DNA from: a virus
Strand: one strand, 5' to 3'
Virus record (IMG/VR): IMGVR_UViG_3300035698_031256
Span: 1 to 37,259 of that record
Length of the DNA: 37,259 nt
Positions 1-36,806 of this stretch are shown in pieces. The position numbers and the translations under genes are program-made. The stretch's first letter is position 1. Each line of letters starts with the position of its first letter. Below the pieces are notes generated by a model. That model was not told the DNA's origin and ran no database searches. It worked only from the letters and a program-made list of their open reading frames with translations.

Positions 1-141
1 AGCCGTTGATAGTTTCGCATTCGGAAACATAATTTTATATTCCTTTTTACTATAATTATGAGTTTCAAGATGTTTTTTATCAATTTTTTTAAACTCATTA
101 CCACATATTTCACATTTTATTATGATTAAATATTTAATCAT
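1..141 (-). CDS. Zinc-finger protein, N-terminal part (possible homing endonuclease), cut by window edge
   Basis: The reading frame starts at an ATG at 141 and stays open for 47 codons to the window edge, so the C-terminus is missing. After MIKYLIIIK it has a C2H2-type finger: CEICG, then HLETH, then SKKEYKIMFPNA. The spacing and the tail EYxxxFPNA are typical of the zinc fingers found at the front of phage homing endonucleases and some Ros/MucR-like phage DNA-binding proteins. No nuclease motif is inside the window, so the endonuclease reading is inference. It lies just downstream of an interrupted SbcD/Mre11-like gene start on the same strand, which is where an intron-borne or inserted endonuclease would sit. 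The start codon is inside a 28-bp perfect palindrome. Confidence 0.6.
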   Translation of the reverse strand, partial: MIKYLIIIKCEICGNEFKKIDKKHLETHNYSKKEYKIMFPNAKLSTA

Positions 142-145
142 AATA
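118..145. repeat. 28-bp perfect palindrome over a start codon
   Basis: The bases read identically on both strands (TATTATGATTAAAT and its complement, no spacer). It contains the ATG of the zinc-finger ORF on the minus strand and a mirror ATG on the plus strand. The plus-strand copy leads only to a 13-codon frame. It could fold as a hairpin in mRNA that hides the start, or be a DNA-binding site. Composition is almost purely A/T, but 14-bp arms without mismatch are unlikely by chance at one given site. Confidence 0.8.
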
Positions 146-173
146 GTGCATAAAATAGCTTAATCAACTGATA

Positions 174-218
174 TTATTTATATACATTTTGGATATCCGC
201 AGTGTGAGCTATCTTCAT
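174..218 (-). pseudogene. Interrupted start of an SbcD/Mre11/gp47-like nuclease gene
   Basis: An ATG at 218 opens MKIAHTADIQNVYK and then stops (TAA at 174-176). The first ten residues match the very characteristic N-terminus of SbcD/Mre11-family nucleases (MKIxHxADIH/Q, where the D is a metal ligand). A TAnnTTTG promoter box lies 14 bases upstream of the ATG. The remainder of the nuclease does not continue in any frame before the zinc-finger ORF. The gene is therefore either split by an intron or endonuclease insertion, with the second exon beyond the left window edge, or truncated. In T4 the homologue gp47 works with gp46 in recombination, and a RuvC-type resolvase lies directly upstream here. 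The call depends on a short match and could be coincidence. Confidence 0.45.
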
Positions 219-232
219 TCTAATTTTTTATA

Positions 233-240
233 CAAATATA
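233..240 (-). promoter_or_regulatory. Bacteroidetes-type -7 box for the SbcD-like start
   Basis: On the minus strand the sequence TATATTTG fits the Bacteroidetes TAnnTTTG box. It lies 14 bases before the ATG at 218. No clear TTG was seen 17-23 bases upstream. Confidence 0.5.
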
Positions 241-248
241 GGAAAATT

Positions 249-776
249 TTAACTCATTTGCTCATCTAACATAACAAGCATACACAAGCCAACAGCATAA
301 CTATCAGCCATGTCAAAGTTTTCATCTAACAATTTCCTTGAACGAGGCCCATATTTCCAATCAAGTTGAGGCTCTAATTGAGTTACTCTTTCCCAAACTA
401 ACATCTTACCGCTTTTTTCTTGACCTCTTTTAATCAACCCGGGGAAGGCAGTGGCTCTAATCGTATGTATATTCAAATGTACAGGTTCGACACCAAAATG
501 CTTATATACAGCACTAGAAATCATCCCATTAAAGAAATTTAGTTTGGCAATAGTTTGAGGATTAGATTTTCTTCCTTCAAATGATTGCATCGCCTCTTCT
601 ATAGCTATATACTCAATGTTCTCCATATAAGAAACTGCGTCCATGAAAGCATCTAGTCTTTCCCAATAGTTTTTCTTGGAGTTCATTTTTACATAACCAA
701 TATCTGCCATCGTCCCTTCAGAGTCAAACAGTGTGTAACCTATACAAGAGGTTGATATATCTAGTGCTAATAACAT
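249..776 (-). CDS. RuvC-type Holliday junction resolvase
   Basis: This 175-aa protein has the RNase H-like fold signature of RuvC-family crossover-junction endonucleases. The first acidic residue is D6 in LLALDIST, the second is E60/E61 in IAIEEA after a beta-strand, and the C-terminal FDMADSYAVG holds D155 and D158. The length matches RuvC (about 170 aa). It would cut four-way DNA junctions during phage recombination and before packaging. T4 itself uses the unrelated endonuclease VII for this job, so this lineage uses a different resolvase. The gene is separated from the tail genes by a strong terminator and lies just upstream of an SbcD/gp47-like start, which points to a recombination module continuing to the left. 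Confidence 0.85.
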   Translation of the reverse strand: MLLALDISTSCIGYTLFDSEGTMADIGYVKMNSKKNYWERLDAFMDAVSYMENIEYIAIEEAMQSFEGRKSNPQTIAKLNFFNGMISSAVYKHFGVEPVHLNIHTIRATAFPGLIKRGQEKSGKMLVWERVTQLEPQLDWKYGPRSRKLLDENFDMADSYAVGLCMLVMLDEQMS

Positions 777-5377: not shown

Positions 5378-7870
5378 ATGCCATTTGATTTACCAAATAC
5401 AGCGAGTACATTATCCCCCTTCTTTTCGCCGGGAGAAGACCTGAGATATTTCCCAACAACAGATCGTTCGATCTCCACCGTTGGTGACTACCGTGTGCAA
5501 ACCAACTTTGACCCGCAATCAATCAGTAGAGTGATTAAAAACCTGAGTTTTGATCAATATGAATCACTAAATTCAATGAGTATCACAGGAGCTACTTCCG
5601 CTGACACCATTAATGTATTCGTACAATCACAAGAACTTAATCTCGACTTTCAAAGACCTGAAAATAATACCTATTTCTCTAGTTTTAAAACAGAGGTAAT
5701 CAAAGGAATCGCGGAAATAATCGCAGATTATCCATATGCAATCTATGTAACTTCAGGGTCATCTAGTGCTGATACTATATATGATTTTTCTAAATCATAT
5801 AACTTGAATACAAATGAGATTCAGTCTACTTTTAAAATTTCAACCAACACATTAATAAACCAAGGAAATGTGTTGCTTAATTCTGGATATTCTTATAATA
5901 ATAAAAGTTTATTCAACAATTACAACGAATATGTTGTTCAGTTTAGAAATGGAGAAGACGCAAACACTGGATCAACAACTCCAAAACTTCCAATCTTAAA
6001 TTATTCATTTTCTGCGGGAGCTTTTATTGAATTAACAGTTAAAGGAGATTTTCTAACAGGTCAAACATCAGGGGTTTCATTTTCTGAGTTTTATATCGCC
6101 CCTTCTCCAAAAACGGTTTATAAATTTAAGAAAGGAATTACGCCATTACAGAAACAACTTTTCTATAATGGCAAGTATAAAATCGCCAACCCACTACTTA
6201 ATGATGGGTCTACAATTGAGGTGACCTACAAGTGGACGAAAACAATTGATGGTTATAATCCTGATACCTACGGAGTTCCGTTTGATAATTGGAAGGATAG
6301 CTTTCTTGATTTCGCTGAAGACTTAGATTGTGATAAAACTGGAATTATGGCTCAAACCATGATACCAGATTCCTATTTTGAGTTTGATAGCGATAGTAAT
6401 ATCTATAAGAATATTACCCAAGCCCAAGCCCAAGAACTTGATATCATTAAACAATATATTGACGGTCTAGTTTACGCCCATACAGTTACATATGATGGAA
6501 CTGAATCTGTGCCTGATAAATTTATATTTAAACTTTCTCAATTACTAGGTTTTGATTTATCTCCTCAATTTAATGAGGTAGATTTATTACGTTACCTTTC
6601 TGGAGACGAAGATGGTCAGGACAACTCAGGAGCTTATTACAATTTACAACTTTGGAGGAAGATTTTAACCAATATTATTTGGCTTCTAAAAAGAAAAGGA
6701 ACTAGAGAATCATTGCTTTGGATATTCCAACTTATTGGAGCGCCAGAGTGCATGATTAGGTTAGATGAGATCGTTTATGATATATCTACTGCATCTGCAT
6801 CTGGCAATACTGGAACGCTGCTAGAGAACGAATTATCATTTAAAGTAAAAACAAATGGATATCCAGATTACGATGTTTCTCCTTATATTTTCCAAGAAGG
6901 TGGAAGTGGTCGTGGAAATGGAATGAAGTATATCGATTATTGGAGACCACAATTTGATCCAGTATTGAGATTTGACAATATTAAAACACAATCTGGTGAT
7001 ACTGTTTATTTTGGGACTGAAAATATTATCAATTCTAAACAATTATATGCTGCACTTGATCCAGCTCAAGCGATTGAGTGTAATGTGCATGAGTGGTATC
7101 AATTAACTGGAACAGTTTGGAATTATTGTTATACAGATATTTCTATGTGTGATTGGGATTATCCTTTTCAATGGATTCCTAGTGATCCGTATGCCGCAAA
7201 ACCAACTGGAGCCACAGAGCATATTTCTGGAATGACACATCAAGAATACATGTCATTCTTGTTCACAAACAATGTTGATCCACAAACTAGAAAAACAAAT
7301 GATCAAGGTCATACAACTTTCTATTATCCAGCTCTGAAAAATATTTATCTGAATTATTCTTACTTGAGTAACCCTCAGTCGAATAGAATAACTATGAGTA
7401 AACTTGAAAATTTCATCAAGCTTATTGAAAGGAAATTCTTCAATTACGGAAGGCAGCTTTTACCTGCCACCTCAATCTTACTAGCTCAAGGAGTGATGTA
7501 TAGAAACACAGAGTTTCACAGAGAGAGATTTATTTACAAAGACGGAATTAATAAAGGTTCTGAATTTAAGGTTGATATTTCTCAACCTGAACCAACAATT
7601 GAGGTAGTTGAAGTTACTAATGAGATAATTCAAGAAATTGAAGGTGTTATTAACCCTATTGAAGTTACTAATGAGATAATTCAAGAAATTGAAGGCGAAA
7701 TAATTTTAATTGATGTTTCTAATGAGGTATCGATTGAAATTGAGGGAGTAATCAATGGTTATAATATAGTTGTCGAAATTGAAGACTTTACTGAAAATAT
7801 AGAAGATGTTTCTGATGTTGTTGTTACACAGTTGCTTCAAGATATGTCTGATATTGTAGTTGTAGAATAA
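5378..7870 (+). CDS. Large tail/baseplate protein
   Basis: An 830-aa protein. The ATG at 5378 (MPFDLPNTAS) is preferred to a TTG at 5345, because the TTG lies inside the presumed promoter box. The central part (residues about 370-470) contains helices and the motif WLLKRKGTRESLLWIFQLIG, which resembles the KGTxxSxxxxLxLxG segment of phage tail/baseplate proteins of the P2 gpI type. Most of the protein is beta-rich. The C-terminus (from about residue 735) is a run of acidic 17-residue repeats. It is one of only two big plus-strand genes in the minus-strand virion block and has its own promoter-like box, so it may be timed differently from its neighbours. The exact baseplate role is unknown. 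Confidence 0.6.
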   Translation: MPFDLPNTASTLSPFFSPGEDLRYFPTTDRSISTVGDYRVQTNFDPQSISRVIKNLSFDQYESLNSMSITGATSADTINVFVQSQELNLDFQRPENNTYFSSFKTEVIKGIAEIIADYPYAIYVTSGSSSADTIYDFSKSYNLNTNEIQSTFKISTNTLINQGNVLLNSGYSYNNKSLFNNYNEYVVQFRNGEDANTGSTTPKLPILNYSFSAGAFIELTVKGDFLTGQTSGVSFSEFYIAPSPKTVYKFKKGITPLQKQLFYNGKYKIANPLLNDGSTIEVTYKWTKTIDGYNPDTYGVPFDNWKDSFLDFAEDLDCDKTGIMAQTMIPDSYFEFDSDSNIYKNITQAQAQELDIIKQYIDGLVYAHTVTYDGTESVPDKFIFKLSQLLGFDLSPQFNEVDLLRYLSGDEDGQDNSGAYYNLQLWRKILTNIIWLLKRKGTRESLLWIFQLIGAPECMIRLDEIVYDISTASASGNTGTLLENELSFKVKTNGYPDYDVSPYIFQEGGSGRGNGMKYIDYWRPQFDPVLRFDNIKTQSGDTVYFGTENIINSKQLYAALDPAQAIECNVHEWYQLTGTVWNYCYTDISMCDWDYPFQWIPSDPYAAKPTGATEHISGMTHQEYMSFLFTNNVDPQTRKTNDQGHTTFYYPALKNIYLNYSYLSNPQSNRITMSKLENFIKLIERKFFNYGRQLLPATSILLAQGVMYRNTEFHRERFIYKDGINKGSEFKVDISQPEPTIEVVEVTNEIIQEIEGVINPIEVTNEIIQEIEGEIILIDVSNEVSIEIEGVINGYNIVVEIEDFTENIEDVSDVVVTQLLQDMSDIVVVE
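7610..7762 (+). repeat. Three 51-bp tandem repeats in coding sequence
   Basis: Units start at 7610, 7661 and 7712. Each encodes 17 residues of the pattern EVTNEIIQEIEGxIxxI. The first two units are identical over their first 35 bases; the third has diverged (DVSNEVSIEIEGVINGY). The period is a whole number of codons, so gain or loss of units keeps the frame. The repeats form an acidic, beta-branched C-terminal tail on the 830-aa tail protein. Confidence 0.85.
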
Positions 7871-17889: not shown

Positions 17890-18196
17890 CATCATCTAAT
17901 TCTTTCTTAATGGTTTCCATATATGATTTATCAAAAATGTCATATAAAAACCCCATTCTCATTGTGTGATATGAATTATCTATAATGCTGTCGAACTCTT
18001 TCTTATTGTTTTCCTTATAGTTTTGAAACTTGTTTTGAGATTCTAATATTTCAACTGGGAAACTGTGGAAGAACAGGTCAAAATGATCCCCACACTCTTC
18101 TTGTAGTTCAATCATCTCCTTATAGGCACAATCAACAGGCTTGTTGGAATTAAAGGTTAAACACAAAATCAGTAAGATATAAAATAATAGCTTCAT
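17873..18196 (-). CDS. Small secreted/periplasmic protein with signal peptide (107 aa)
   Basis: The N-terminus MKLLFYILLILCLTF is a typical Sec signal: one Lys, a hydrophobic core of about 13 residues, then a polar region with a likely cleavage site near VDCA at residue 24. No lipobox is certain. The mature part (about 83 aa) is acidic and helical, with Cys35 and a Cys at the very end (IRCQ) that could pair after export. It sits in the accessory island next to two homing endonucleases, not in the virion operon proper. Export of a small phage protein fits superinfection exclusion or lysis control, but no known family is recognised. The first seven codons lie inside a 52-bp palindrome. Confidence 0.6.
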   Translation of the reverse strand: MKLLFYILLILCLTFNSNKPVDCAYKEMIELQEECGDHFDLFFHSFPVEILESQNKFQNYKENNKKEFDSIIDNSYHTMRMGFLYDIFDKSYMETIKKELDDVIRCQ

Positions 18197-18227
18197 AATT
18201 ATAATTATGAAGCTATTATTTTATATC
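18176..18227. repeat. 52-bp perfect palindrome over a start codon
   Basis: Twenty-six-base arms pair without mismatch and without spacer (inner bases TTCATAATTA/TAATTATGAA, outer ends GATAT/ATATC). The left arm holds the ATG and first seven codons of the secreted-protein gene on the minus strand. The right arm is an inverted copy giving a ghost start (MKLLFYI, then unrelated codons) on the plus strand. A T-run follows on the plus strand (18231-18239), so it may also terminate plus-strand transcription just before the HNH gene promoter. Confidence 0.9.
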
Positions 18228-18239
18228 AGTTTTTTTTTC

Positions 18240-18247
18240 TATTTTTG
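18240..18247 (+). promoter_or_regulatory. Bacteroidetes-type -7 box for the HNH endonuclease gene
   Basis: TATTTTTG fits TAnnTTTG and lies 25 bases before the ATG at 18273. The upstream region is the 52-bp palindrome plus a T-run, with no clear TTG. Confidence 0.4.
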
Positions 18248-18272
18248 TAGAGACTAATAGAAACTAAGACTA

Positions 18273-19061
18273 ATGAAGACCTGTAAAAAGTGTAAAACGG
18301 AGAAGCCGTTGAATAAATTTAGCAAGAACAAATTAACAAAAGATGGATTGAAAGGTCAGTGTAAATCTTGCTGTGAGGAATATAATAAAAACTATAGAAC
18401 AGAAAATTCGGAACGTAGGAAGGAATATCGAGAAGCAAATTCGGAACGTAGGAGAGAGATTCAGAAAAAATGGTATGAAAAAAATAAAGAGAAGAGAAAC
18501 AAATATTGTAAAGCCTACCGAGAAAAAAATAAGGAGCGTATTAAGAAATACCAAAAAGAAAACGAGAATACATTAAAAGAAACAAACAGGAGATATCGAG
18601 AAAAAAATAAGGACATTCTAAAGGAATATCAAAATAATTATAGAAAAGAAAAATATAAGAACGACCCAGACTTCAGAATGATTTTAAGCCAAAGAAAAAG
18701 AATTCGTCAAGCGCTAAAAGATCAGAATATACCCAAAACTCAAAAAACACACAAATTACTTAACTGTACTTCTGTTGAGCTTAGAACTCATATAGAAAAC
18801 CAATTTAAACCTTGGATGAATTGGGATAATCACGGTAAATACAATGGAGAATACTTTCATGGATGGGATGTGGATCACATTAGACCAATTTCTTCGTTTG
18901 ACCTCTCTGATCCTCAACAGCAAGTAATTGCATTCAATTATAAAAACCTAATGCCTTTATGTTCCCGAAAAAACCGAGACGATAAAAGAGCTGCGCCATT
19001 CTCAGAATGGGTTCAAGACAAACCCTTCTATTTATTTGACTTAAATTCTACTTTCGAATAA
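18273..19061 (+). CDS. HNH homing endonuclease with N-terminal zinc finger
   Basis: 262 aa. Residues 1-35 carry a zinc finger (C4, C7, C30, C33: KTCKKCKTEKPLNKFSKN... QCKSCC). Residues about 36-130 are a highly charged linker of imperfect repeats about 12-14 residues long (NSERRKEYREAN, YREKNKERIKKYQ), partly also repeated at DNA level (TTCGGAACGTAGGA occurs twice near 18410-18460). Residues about 199-240 form the HNH nuclease core (WDVDHIRPISSF... FNYKNLMPLCSRKNRDDKR). This architecture is common in free-standing phage HNH endonucleases. Its 3' end overlaps the convergent second endonuclease gene by 21 bases. It should cut cognate DNA in relatives lacking the insert and so spread itself; the target is likely near the flanking baseplate genes. 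Confidence 0.85.
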   Translation: MKTCKKCKTEKPLNKFSKNKLTKDGLKGQCKSCCEEYNKNYRTENSERRKEYREANSERRREIQKKWYEKNKEKRNKYCKAYREKNKERIKKYQKENENTLKETNRRYREKNKDILKEYQNNYRKEKYKNDPDFRMILSQRKRIRQALKDQNIPKTQKTHKLLNCTSVELRTHIENQFKPWMNWDNHGKYNGEYFHGWDVDHIRPISSFDLSDPQQQVIAFNYKNLMPLCSRKNRDDKRAAPFSEWVQDKPFYLFDLNSTFE

Positions 19062-19952
19062 TTCTTTCAACTCACCCAAATCTATCCAAGAGTTAGAGTT
19101 CTTCACTAGGTTTTCTTCCCAAGGTATCATTTGGAGATTAACAATGCTTCCGACTATGTTTGGATCAACATCATTCTTGAACCCATCAATGATTGAGTAA
19201 ATATGATCTAAATGATAAGCTCCCTCAATTCCTGCTTTACCTCTTTTGTCAAAATTATCTAACTCTTGTAGTGTCTGTCTGTTGGTTATTGTTCTTACTT
19301 GTTGATGATACTTTTTGAATTTTGGTCGAACCTTTTGGAACTCTTCATAAGTGTACCCAGTTCTTTCTAAGTATATGTGATCATACTCTCCAGCCTCTTT
19401 TTTTCTTTTCTTTGTTTCTCTTACTTTGTTTTTTACTTCTAGACTTTGATTGTTTCCTAAGTTTCCTAAAAATCTTTCTTCTTTTCTTATAATCCCAAAT
19501 TCACCCAACACCCTATGAGTGTTTGTGTATGATGCCGCCAAACTCTCTGCTACTTTAAAAATACTTTTCCCCTCCAAATACAGCGCCTTCATTTCTTCAT
19601 GTTTTTCCTTATCGGATAAATCATAGTCTGAAAAAGATTTCATTTCAACCCCTCCTTCTCTGAGGACTCTTAACACCGTGCATTGAGAACACGAAAGTTT
19701 TTCTCCTATTTTTGTAGCAGACAATCCTTGATTATAAAAAGGCAGAACTTCCTCTAAAGAAAGCATCCTTCCGTATTTGTGTCCTTTTTTTGCTTTTGAA
19801 ATGCTTCTTGTTGAATATCCTCTCCTTTTTACAACTTTAGAAACTAGAGTCGAGCTGTATCCTACCATCTCTCCAACCTTAGTGGTCGAGAGTTCTTGAT
19901 TAATATAAAGATCAATAATTTGATCTTCTTCTTGTGTGGTTAACTTCTTCAT
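19041..19952 (-). CDS. Homing endonuclease with three HTH repeats and C-terminal HNH-type domain
   Basis: 303 aa. Three related helix-turn-helix units occur at residues about 8-40 (DLYINQELSTTKVGEMVGYS), 70-102 (FYNQGLSATKIGEKLSCS) and 122-155 (LYLEGKSIFKVAESLAAS), each with the pattern YxxGxSxxKVxExL. A basic linker follows (about 165-190). The C-terminal part (about 245-292) has an HNH-like core: AYHLDHIYSI, then NLQMIPWEENLVKN. HTH arrays joined to an HNH-type nuclease are typical of mobile phage endonucleases. The gene lies between the gp6-like gene and the gp7-position gene in the same direction as both, and converges with the other endonuclease. Confidence 0.8.
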   Translation of the reverse strand: MKKLTTQEEDQIIDLYINQELSTTKVGEMVGYSSTLVSKVVKRRGYSTRSISKAKKGHKYGRMLSLEEVLPFYNQGLSATKIGEKLSCSQCTVLRVLREGGVEMKSFSDYDLSDKEKHEEMKALYLEGKSIFKVAESLAASYTNTHRVLGEFGIIRKEERFLGNLGNNQSLEVKNKVRETKKRKKEAGEYDHIYLERTGYTYEEFQKVRPKFKKYHQQVRTITNRQTLQELDNFDKRGKAGIEGAYHLDHIYSIIDGFKNDVDPNIVGSIVNLQMIPWEENLVKNSNSWIDLGELKELFESRI

Positions 19953-20004
19953 GTATATAAATACATAAAGAAAATGTTAGAAGTAAAGGAAGCGATAAAA
20001 GATG

Positions 20005-35948: not shown

Positions 35949-36806
35949 ATGGATTTTAAAGATTACAAGCCTTGGGTGCAAACTAAATTATCACCTAAAT
36001 TTCATCCTGACCCAGAGGACGAACAAGAAAGCGAACTCCGCACAATAATTGAAGACTTCATTGAAGTCGGAAATAAACTAGACATCCTTAAAAAAAATAA
36101 ATTCTACGGAAGAGTTAAGGGTCATCCCAAACACGTAGAATCAGGAGTTGAGGTTCGACCATCAGATTCTAATTTTAGAAAAGAGTCTGAGGATGAACAA
36201 CTCCTTCACGCCATTATCGGAATGGCAACAGAAACAGTAGAGATGCTGGAGGCAATCCATGCTTCAAAATGGAAAGAAGAAGAGTTCGATACAGTAAATT
36301 TATTCGAAGAAATGGGAGACCTTGAGTTTTACCGAAGTATTCTATTCAATAACCTCGACTGGACGGAAGACGGAGTTCGAGACACCAATTACTTTAAGTT
36401 AGAAAAAAGATACCCAGTCGGCTATACTGATAAAGATGCCACTGAACGAGATTTGGAGTCCGAAAGAACCATTCTGGAAGATGGTTTAGGTAAAGAAAAG
36501 TTCATATATGTAGCTGTGACCAGTTTCGATGCGTTTCGTGGAATTAAAATATCATCAAAATTTAAAAAGTTAATGCAAGAAATTGAAGCTTCTTCTGACG
36601 AGTTAATTGAAGGGATATTTGAAGACTATGATGAATACCGAACTTTCGAAGTGGAATGCTCTTCTCAAGCAAGGCATGGGTCAAATGGGACTGAAGAGTA
36701 TAGTCTCGACACTAGTGTCGAGACTATTGTATCTGACAACTGGAATTTCGAACAAAAGGAGCTTGATCAATTCCCGTCTTATGAAAAACTTTTAAGTGGT
36801 GCGTAA
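35949..36806 (+). CDS. MazG-like nucleotide pyrophosphohydrolase with C-terminal extension
   Basis: 285 aa. Residues about 80-170 have the MazG signature: QLLHAIIGMATETVEMLEAI gives the ExxE metal pair (E95, E98), then NLFEEMGDLEFYRSILF gives the EExxD pair. The following KRYPVGYTDKDATERDLESERTILE is typical of phage MazG-like proteins. The enzyme class hydrolyses nucleoside triphosphates to monophosphates; in phages it may trim the dNTP pool or lower ppGpp. Residues about 181-285 are an extension of unknown fold that contains a coded perfect palindrome. The stop overlaps the start of the mini-ORF by eight bases, making an operon with thyA. Confidence 0.75.
   Translation: MDFKDYKPWVQTKLSPKFHPDPEDEQESELRTIIEDFIEVGNKLDILKKNKFYGRVKGHPKHVESGVEVRPSDSNFRKESEDEQLLHAIIGMATETVEMLEAIHASKWKEEEFDTVNLFEEMGDLEFYRSILFNNLDWTEDGVRDTNYFKLEKRYPVGYTDKDATERDLESERTILEDGLGKEKFIYVAVTSFDAFRGIKISSKFKKLMQEIEASSDELIEGIFEDYDEYRTFEVECSSQARHGSNGTEEYSLDTSVETIVSDNWNFEQKELDQFPSYEKLLSGA
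36700..36727. repeat. 28-bp perfect palindrome inside the mazG-like gene
   Basis: ATAGTCTCGACACT and its complement, with no spacer. It has twelve G/C bases, unusual for this A/T-rich genome. It encodes YSLDTSVETI in the C-terminal extension. As single-stranded RNA it would form a strong stem; as DNA it could be a binding site for a dimeric protein. Confidence 0.9.

Follow-up and report, generated by a model that had tools for sequence, protein, structure and literature searches.

The gene for a fused phage SbcD-SbcC (Mre11-Rad50) protein is probably interrupted near its 5' end, in the viral record analysed here, by an insertion bearing a homing endonuclease. The complete record (37,259 bases) served as the window, so that the leftward extension suggested before would run past its end, and the feature sits at this end, where we noticed the following elements:

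249..776, minus strand: gene for a RuvC-like Holliday-junction resolvase (PHROG 159/827), the synteny anchor, which adjoins SbcD also in L005-L008.
233..240, minus strand: promoter-like TATATTTG, kept at the same distance in L005.
188..218, minus strand: 5' piece ('exon 1') of the fused SbcD-SbcC gene, comprising MKIAHTADIQ and the first base of codon 11.
1..187, minus strand: insert (intervening DNA), about 21% G+C, which ends with the record.
1..141, minus strand: N-terminal 47 codons of an incomplete zinc-finger (CxxC-HxxxH) ORF of homing-endonuclease type.
118..145, strand not applicable: 28-nt perfect palindrome over the start codon of the zinc-finger ORF, with a predicted 12-bp RNA hairpin.

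All that a preliminary description had read from this end, namely a promoter-like motif, an ATG, MKIAHTADIQ, a stop after 14 codons and a zinc-finger ORF, is present in the sequence. The ATG lies at 218-216 on the minus strand and opens MKIAHTADIQNVYK, which is followed by TAA (218-174), and upstream of it TATATTTG matches TAnnTTTG, which we take to be the Bacteroidota -7 consensus. The second minus-strand ORF runs from the ATG at 141 to the record end and is still open after 47 aa (MIKYLIIIKCEICGNEFKKIDKKHLETHNYSKKEYKIMFPNAKLSTA). In four related viral contigs, whose RuvC-like proteins are 80-90% identical to that of the window, an intact gene lies directly downstream of the RuvC-like gene and starts with MKIAHTADIQIRFGARHDEF or MKICHTADIQ. 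Its ORF of about 1154 codons is uninterrupted (one of the four contigs ends inside it) and joins a metallophosphoesterase half to an SbcC/Rad50 half in a single-chain SbcD-SbcC. As 29 of the first 31 coding bases are identical to L005, both changes being synonymous, and the synteny is the same, the assignment of MKIAHTADIQ to an SbcD/Mre11 N-terminus holds; the fragment carries motif I (D-x-H/Q) in the correct gene context. The other SbcD motifs (GD, GNHD, H and GDIH), which are invariant in the alignment of the relatives, would lie beyond the record end. A full SbcD elsewhere, which had been named as the observation that would speak against an interrupted gene, was sought among the ORFs of the window and none was noticed.

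The minus-strand SbcD start (218-188) ends abruptly after ATGAAGATAGCTCACACTGCGGATATCCAAA. The alignment of the window with its closest relative is unbroken across the RuvC-like gene, the spacer, the promoter-like motif and the coding start, and homology ends at ATCCAAA, window base 188, which places the break after codon 10, as had been proposed from the sequence alone. DNA identity with G002 is 81% over 188-2000. No insert was found at this site in any of about 70 related SbcD loci, L061 being without the whole region. The SbcD-SbcC gene of L061 (3873-4160) is without codons 1-20, motif I included, and has an unrelated ORF of 78 aa attached ahead of it; this 5' end is a deletion, a rearrangement or a misassembly.

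Read in the SbcD frame, the insert adds four residues and then a stop, and 46 nt separate the junction from the start of the zinc-finger ORF. The ORF begins with a CxxC-HxxxH finger (C10, C13, H24 and H28) and EYxxxFPxA, as MucR-zinc-finger HNH homing endonucleases do. It matches Pfam ROS_MUCR with an E-value of 1.8e-5 and 25.2 bits, slightly below the cut-off of 25.4. Its best alignments are with the N-termini of HNH nucleases from phages, one of them from a Lysinibacillus phage (47% identity over 36 aa), and those from IMG/VR are encoded just downstream of major capsid genes. On the ROS_MUCR match and the HNH-nuclease N-termini, the ORF may plausibly be read as the start of a homing endonuclease whose nuclease domain would lie beyond the record end, and the earlier label of an endonuclease-type ORF can be kept in the sense of a homing-endonuclease-associated type. 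The exact insert sequence had no match in IMG/VR, its DNA gave low-complexity matches only and no homologue in 21 related records, and the protein found no true relative in viral and genome collections; one candidate, L031, was an unrelated GC-rich protein. A T4-late-promoter-like TATAAATA in the insert was put down to chance, as it occurs 8 times in the window against about 10 expected from our own base-composition estimate. Intervening stops prevent the endonuclease from being read in one continuous frame with the upstream exon.

At two of these loci (L032 2492-2779 and L242 2008-2281) Rfam places a group I intron near the 3' end of the major capsid gene, while the zinc-finger endonuclease is free-standing after the second exon, an arrangement that resembles collaborative homing. 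Zinc-finger proteins of 500-580 aa whose nuclease region is Vsr/PD-(D/E)xK-like were also noticed (L035, from the record of L027, and L033, L247, L249 and L250), and their genes too lie directly behind the major capsid gene, which is thus a recurrent insertion place.

Codons 8-10 form the first metal-ligand motif (D8-x-Q10), and the insert follows directly after it. The preliminary description had called this an unusual site. We argue that it is a typical one, because mobile introns and homing endonucleases favour sequences that encode catalytic motifs; in phages both prefer active-site-encoding sequences (PMC2988022), and relatives have the same gene broken at another catalytic motif. This other break was observed in L099-L103 and L106/L107 (around 5619-5729), right after GDIHEYQTF. 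The first ORF of the split SbcD ends in a conserved acidic C-terminal tail (DRWEEKLIDEDEFEDYESEGWEIVKE), the second (in L100-L102 and L106/L107) begins with a conserved basic N-terminal head (MGKKIRIRRKSPTA), and differing genes, endonucleases among them, lie between the halves. Splits with no cargo, the ORFs being adjacent or overlapping, were found in L196/L198, L202/L210 and L215/L216/L224/L229. Both SbcD halves are present in 13 contigs, and no Rfam intron was detected at the split loci scanned (L027 and L099-L103). Judged by its sequence, the GDIH-split SbcD looks like a natural two-piece Mre11 nuclease. It is like the nrdA of Aeh1, which is divided by mobE, and differs in that the SbcD tails are conserved across distant phages; we found no description of a GDIH-type SbcD split in the literature.

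An insertion is supported by the start of the gene, by homology that drops sharply after 188, by the empty site in relatives and by a zinc-finger ORF on the same strand. That homing endonuclease ORFs interrupt the gene in relatives, at another catalytic motif, argues for it as well, and so does a 1.8-kb insertion with two HNH/endonuclease-type genes in the same window. Counted against it are a junction 187 nt from the record end, where assembly errors concentrate and beyond which the catalytic part and the second exon would lie, the lack of an Rfam intron match in the insert, a P1 pairing of only 4 bp and an ORF 46 nt from the junction. In the mechanism we propose, a mobile element with a homing endonuclease gene would have entered the fused SbcD-SbcC gene after its first metal-binding motif. 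The endonuclease would have a MucR-type zinc finger and then, past the record end, probably an HNH domain; by cutting intact sites in relatives that infect the same cell it would cause the element to be copied in with its flanks.

A ten-residue leader is unable to act as a separate subunit, so either the insert is spliced out or the gene is inactivated. We tentatively, and only slightly, favour the former, in which the insert is removed as RNA and represents an intron with an ORF near its 5' end. Practically all jumbo myophages have SbcC/SbcD (PMC7824862), an argument for retention of the gene and hence for splicing of the insert. A group I intron is a specific form of our preferred reading that had been suggested before, and we regard it as possible though somewhat doubtful. 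The endonuclease ORF would lie in a P1/P2 loop with the core and internal guide past it, and self-splicing would restore SbcD. The insert in an active-site motif, the sense orientation of the endonuclease ORF, a 10-aa fragment that could not function and the group I introns that adjoin related zinc-finger endonucleases in capsid genes all agree with such an intron. On the other hand, the known 187 nt of the insert show no intron signature. In the covariance-model check recommended earlier, Rfam models of group I and group II introns gave no match to these 187 nt at gathering or at E<=5, and no conserved catalytic core (P3-P8) was recognised in them; the same search detects group I introns at two loci with related endonucleases, and it found none in the two closest relatives (144 kb). 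Two U residues near the junction were tried for P1-like pairing, and the best stretch within the known 187 nt was 4 bp, which most shuffles equalled or bettered; the combination of U at the 5' splice site and a P1 pairing typical of group I introns is thus not seen there. A U precedes nearly all group I introns, whereas here an A is the final base shared ahead of the junction, and the boundary would therefore need to shift to between GATAT and CCAAA. With the ORF starting 46 nt into the insert there is no space upstream for an intron core, so that a group I core would follow the ORF, and an ORF in this position is uncommon. Of the earlier proposal, a group I intron or insertion, the insertion is supported, homology stopping at 188 and relatives having an empty site, and the group I assignment is a doubtful one. 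Two other forms were rejected: the insert starts with AUGUAUAUAAAUAA (or AAUG) and not with the 5' GUGYG of group II introns, and has no Rfam match to them, domain V/VI included; an intein, which would be in frame, start with C, S or A and lack a stop, is contradicted by the TAA four codons past the junction.

Inactivation of SbcD-SbcC by an intronless endonuclease insertion or replacement, the phage using host SbcCD or doing without, appears unlikely to us. It is in keeping with the absence of an intron signature in the known insert and with the relatives' second-site insertions in the same gene, which are also Rfam-negative. Against it speak the near-universal occurrence of SbcC/SbcD in such phages (PMC7824862) and, weakly, the purely synonymous changes in the 31-nt start (two of two). 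The palindromes of the record bear on the same question, as SbcCD attacks such structures when long. Perfect palindromes of at least 28 nt number four (28-52 nt) in the 37 kb of the window, at 18176-18227 (52 nt), 820-861, 36700-36727 and 118-145, and two in six related records (545 kb); none of at least 22 nt was found in the closest relative (106 kb), and none of 28 in 40 simulated sequences. However, palindromes of this size (28-52 nt) may not be long enough to count, and the one at 820-861 is an ordinary terminator-like hairpin. The left edge of the endonuclease insertion at 18.2-20.0 kb falls exactly on the 52-nt palindrome, and the one near 36.7 kb lies at a point of divergence. That insertion (18200-20004, 1.8 kb) carries an endonuclease VII-like gene on the plus strand and an HTH/HNH-like gene on the minus strand, and is absent from the same place in G002 and G003. 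A link between the palindrome excess and SbcCD loss is speculative, and that an unspliced insert makes the phage a natural SbcCD-null, which hence accumulates perfect palindromes, is very improbable.

It is also rather improbable that the last 187 bases are the tip of an assembly chimera or of a minor variant, derived from another molecule, and that the phage has an ordinary intact SbcD-SbcC. The short distance of the junction from the end of a metagenomic record, the lack of a DNA match of the insert in IMG/VR or related records and its extreme composition (21% against 35% G+C) would fit such a join; but a random join would seldom land right on a catalytic motif and also put an endonuclease-type ORF on the coding strand, and phages of this group do bear such insertions in the SbcD gene.

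The inserted homing endonuclease that we prefer has parallels in known systems. The group I introns of T4 td, nrdB and nrdD with their I-Tev endonucleases (PMC2988022) likewise place an endonuclease ORF in a critical sequence of a DNA-metabolism gene and have a hairpin over the translation start of the ORF; hairpins over ribosome-binding sites are a feature of T4-type endonuclease genes (PMC2988022). The window differs in its target, SbcD, and in an ORF 46 nt from the junction, and an intron core, P1 and second exon are not demonstrable in it. The intronless endonuclease genes mobE in Aeh1 nrdA and mobA in T4 topoisomerase (PMC2988022) also sit in critical coding regions. They leave two sizeable fragments that reassemble, whereas the first fragment in the window has about 10-14 residues, and L099-L107 fit this model more closely than the insert of the window. 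In Lysinibacillus phage LysYB2 an HNH nuclease adjoining the group I intron of the capsid gene shares the N-terminal MucR-type zinc finger (47% over 36 aa); it follows the second exon as a free-standing gene, whereas the window ORF is inside the gene. Single-polypeptide Mre11/Rad50 fusions are known from Mimivirus (R555) and Bacillus phage 0305phi8-36 (PMC3175470). The relatives' intact gene is such a fusion, and an interruption by a mobile element is not described for those (PMC3175470). We found no earlier report of such a mobile insertion with SbcD as its target.

Combined together, these comparisons suggest that the window holds a mobile insertion of a known type whose target gene we did not find reported before, and the window and the GDIH-broken relatives together suggest that SbcD-SbcC has been hit repeatedly. 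Homing endonucleases would thereby gain the phage Mre11-Rad50 fusion gene as a target, at its first catalytic motif, and the split relatives may offer natural two-piece Mre11 nucleases with which to ask how two polypeptides rebuild a nuclease active site.
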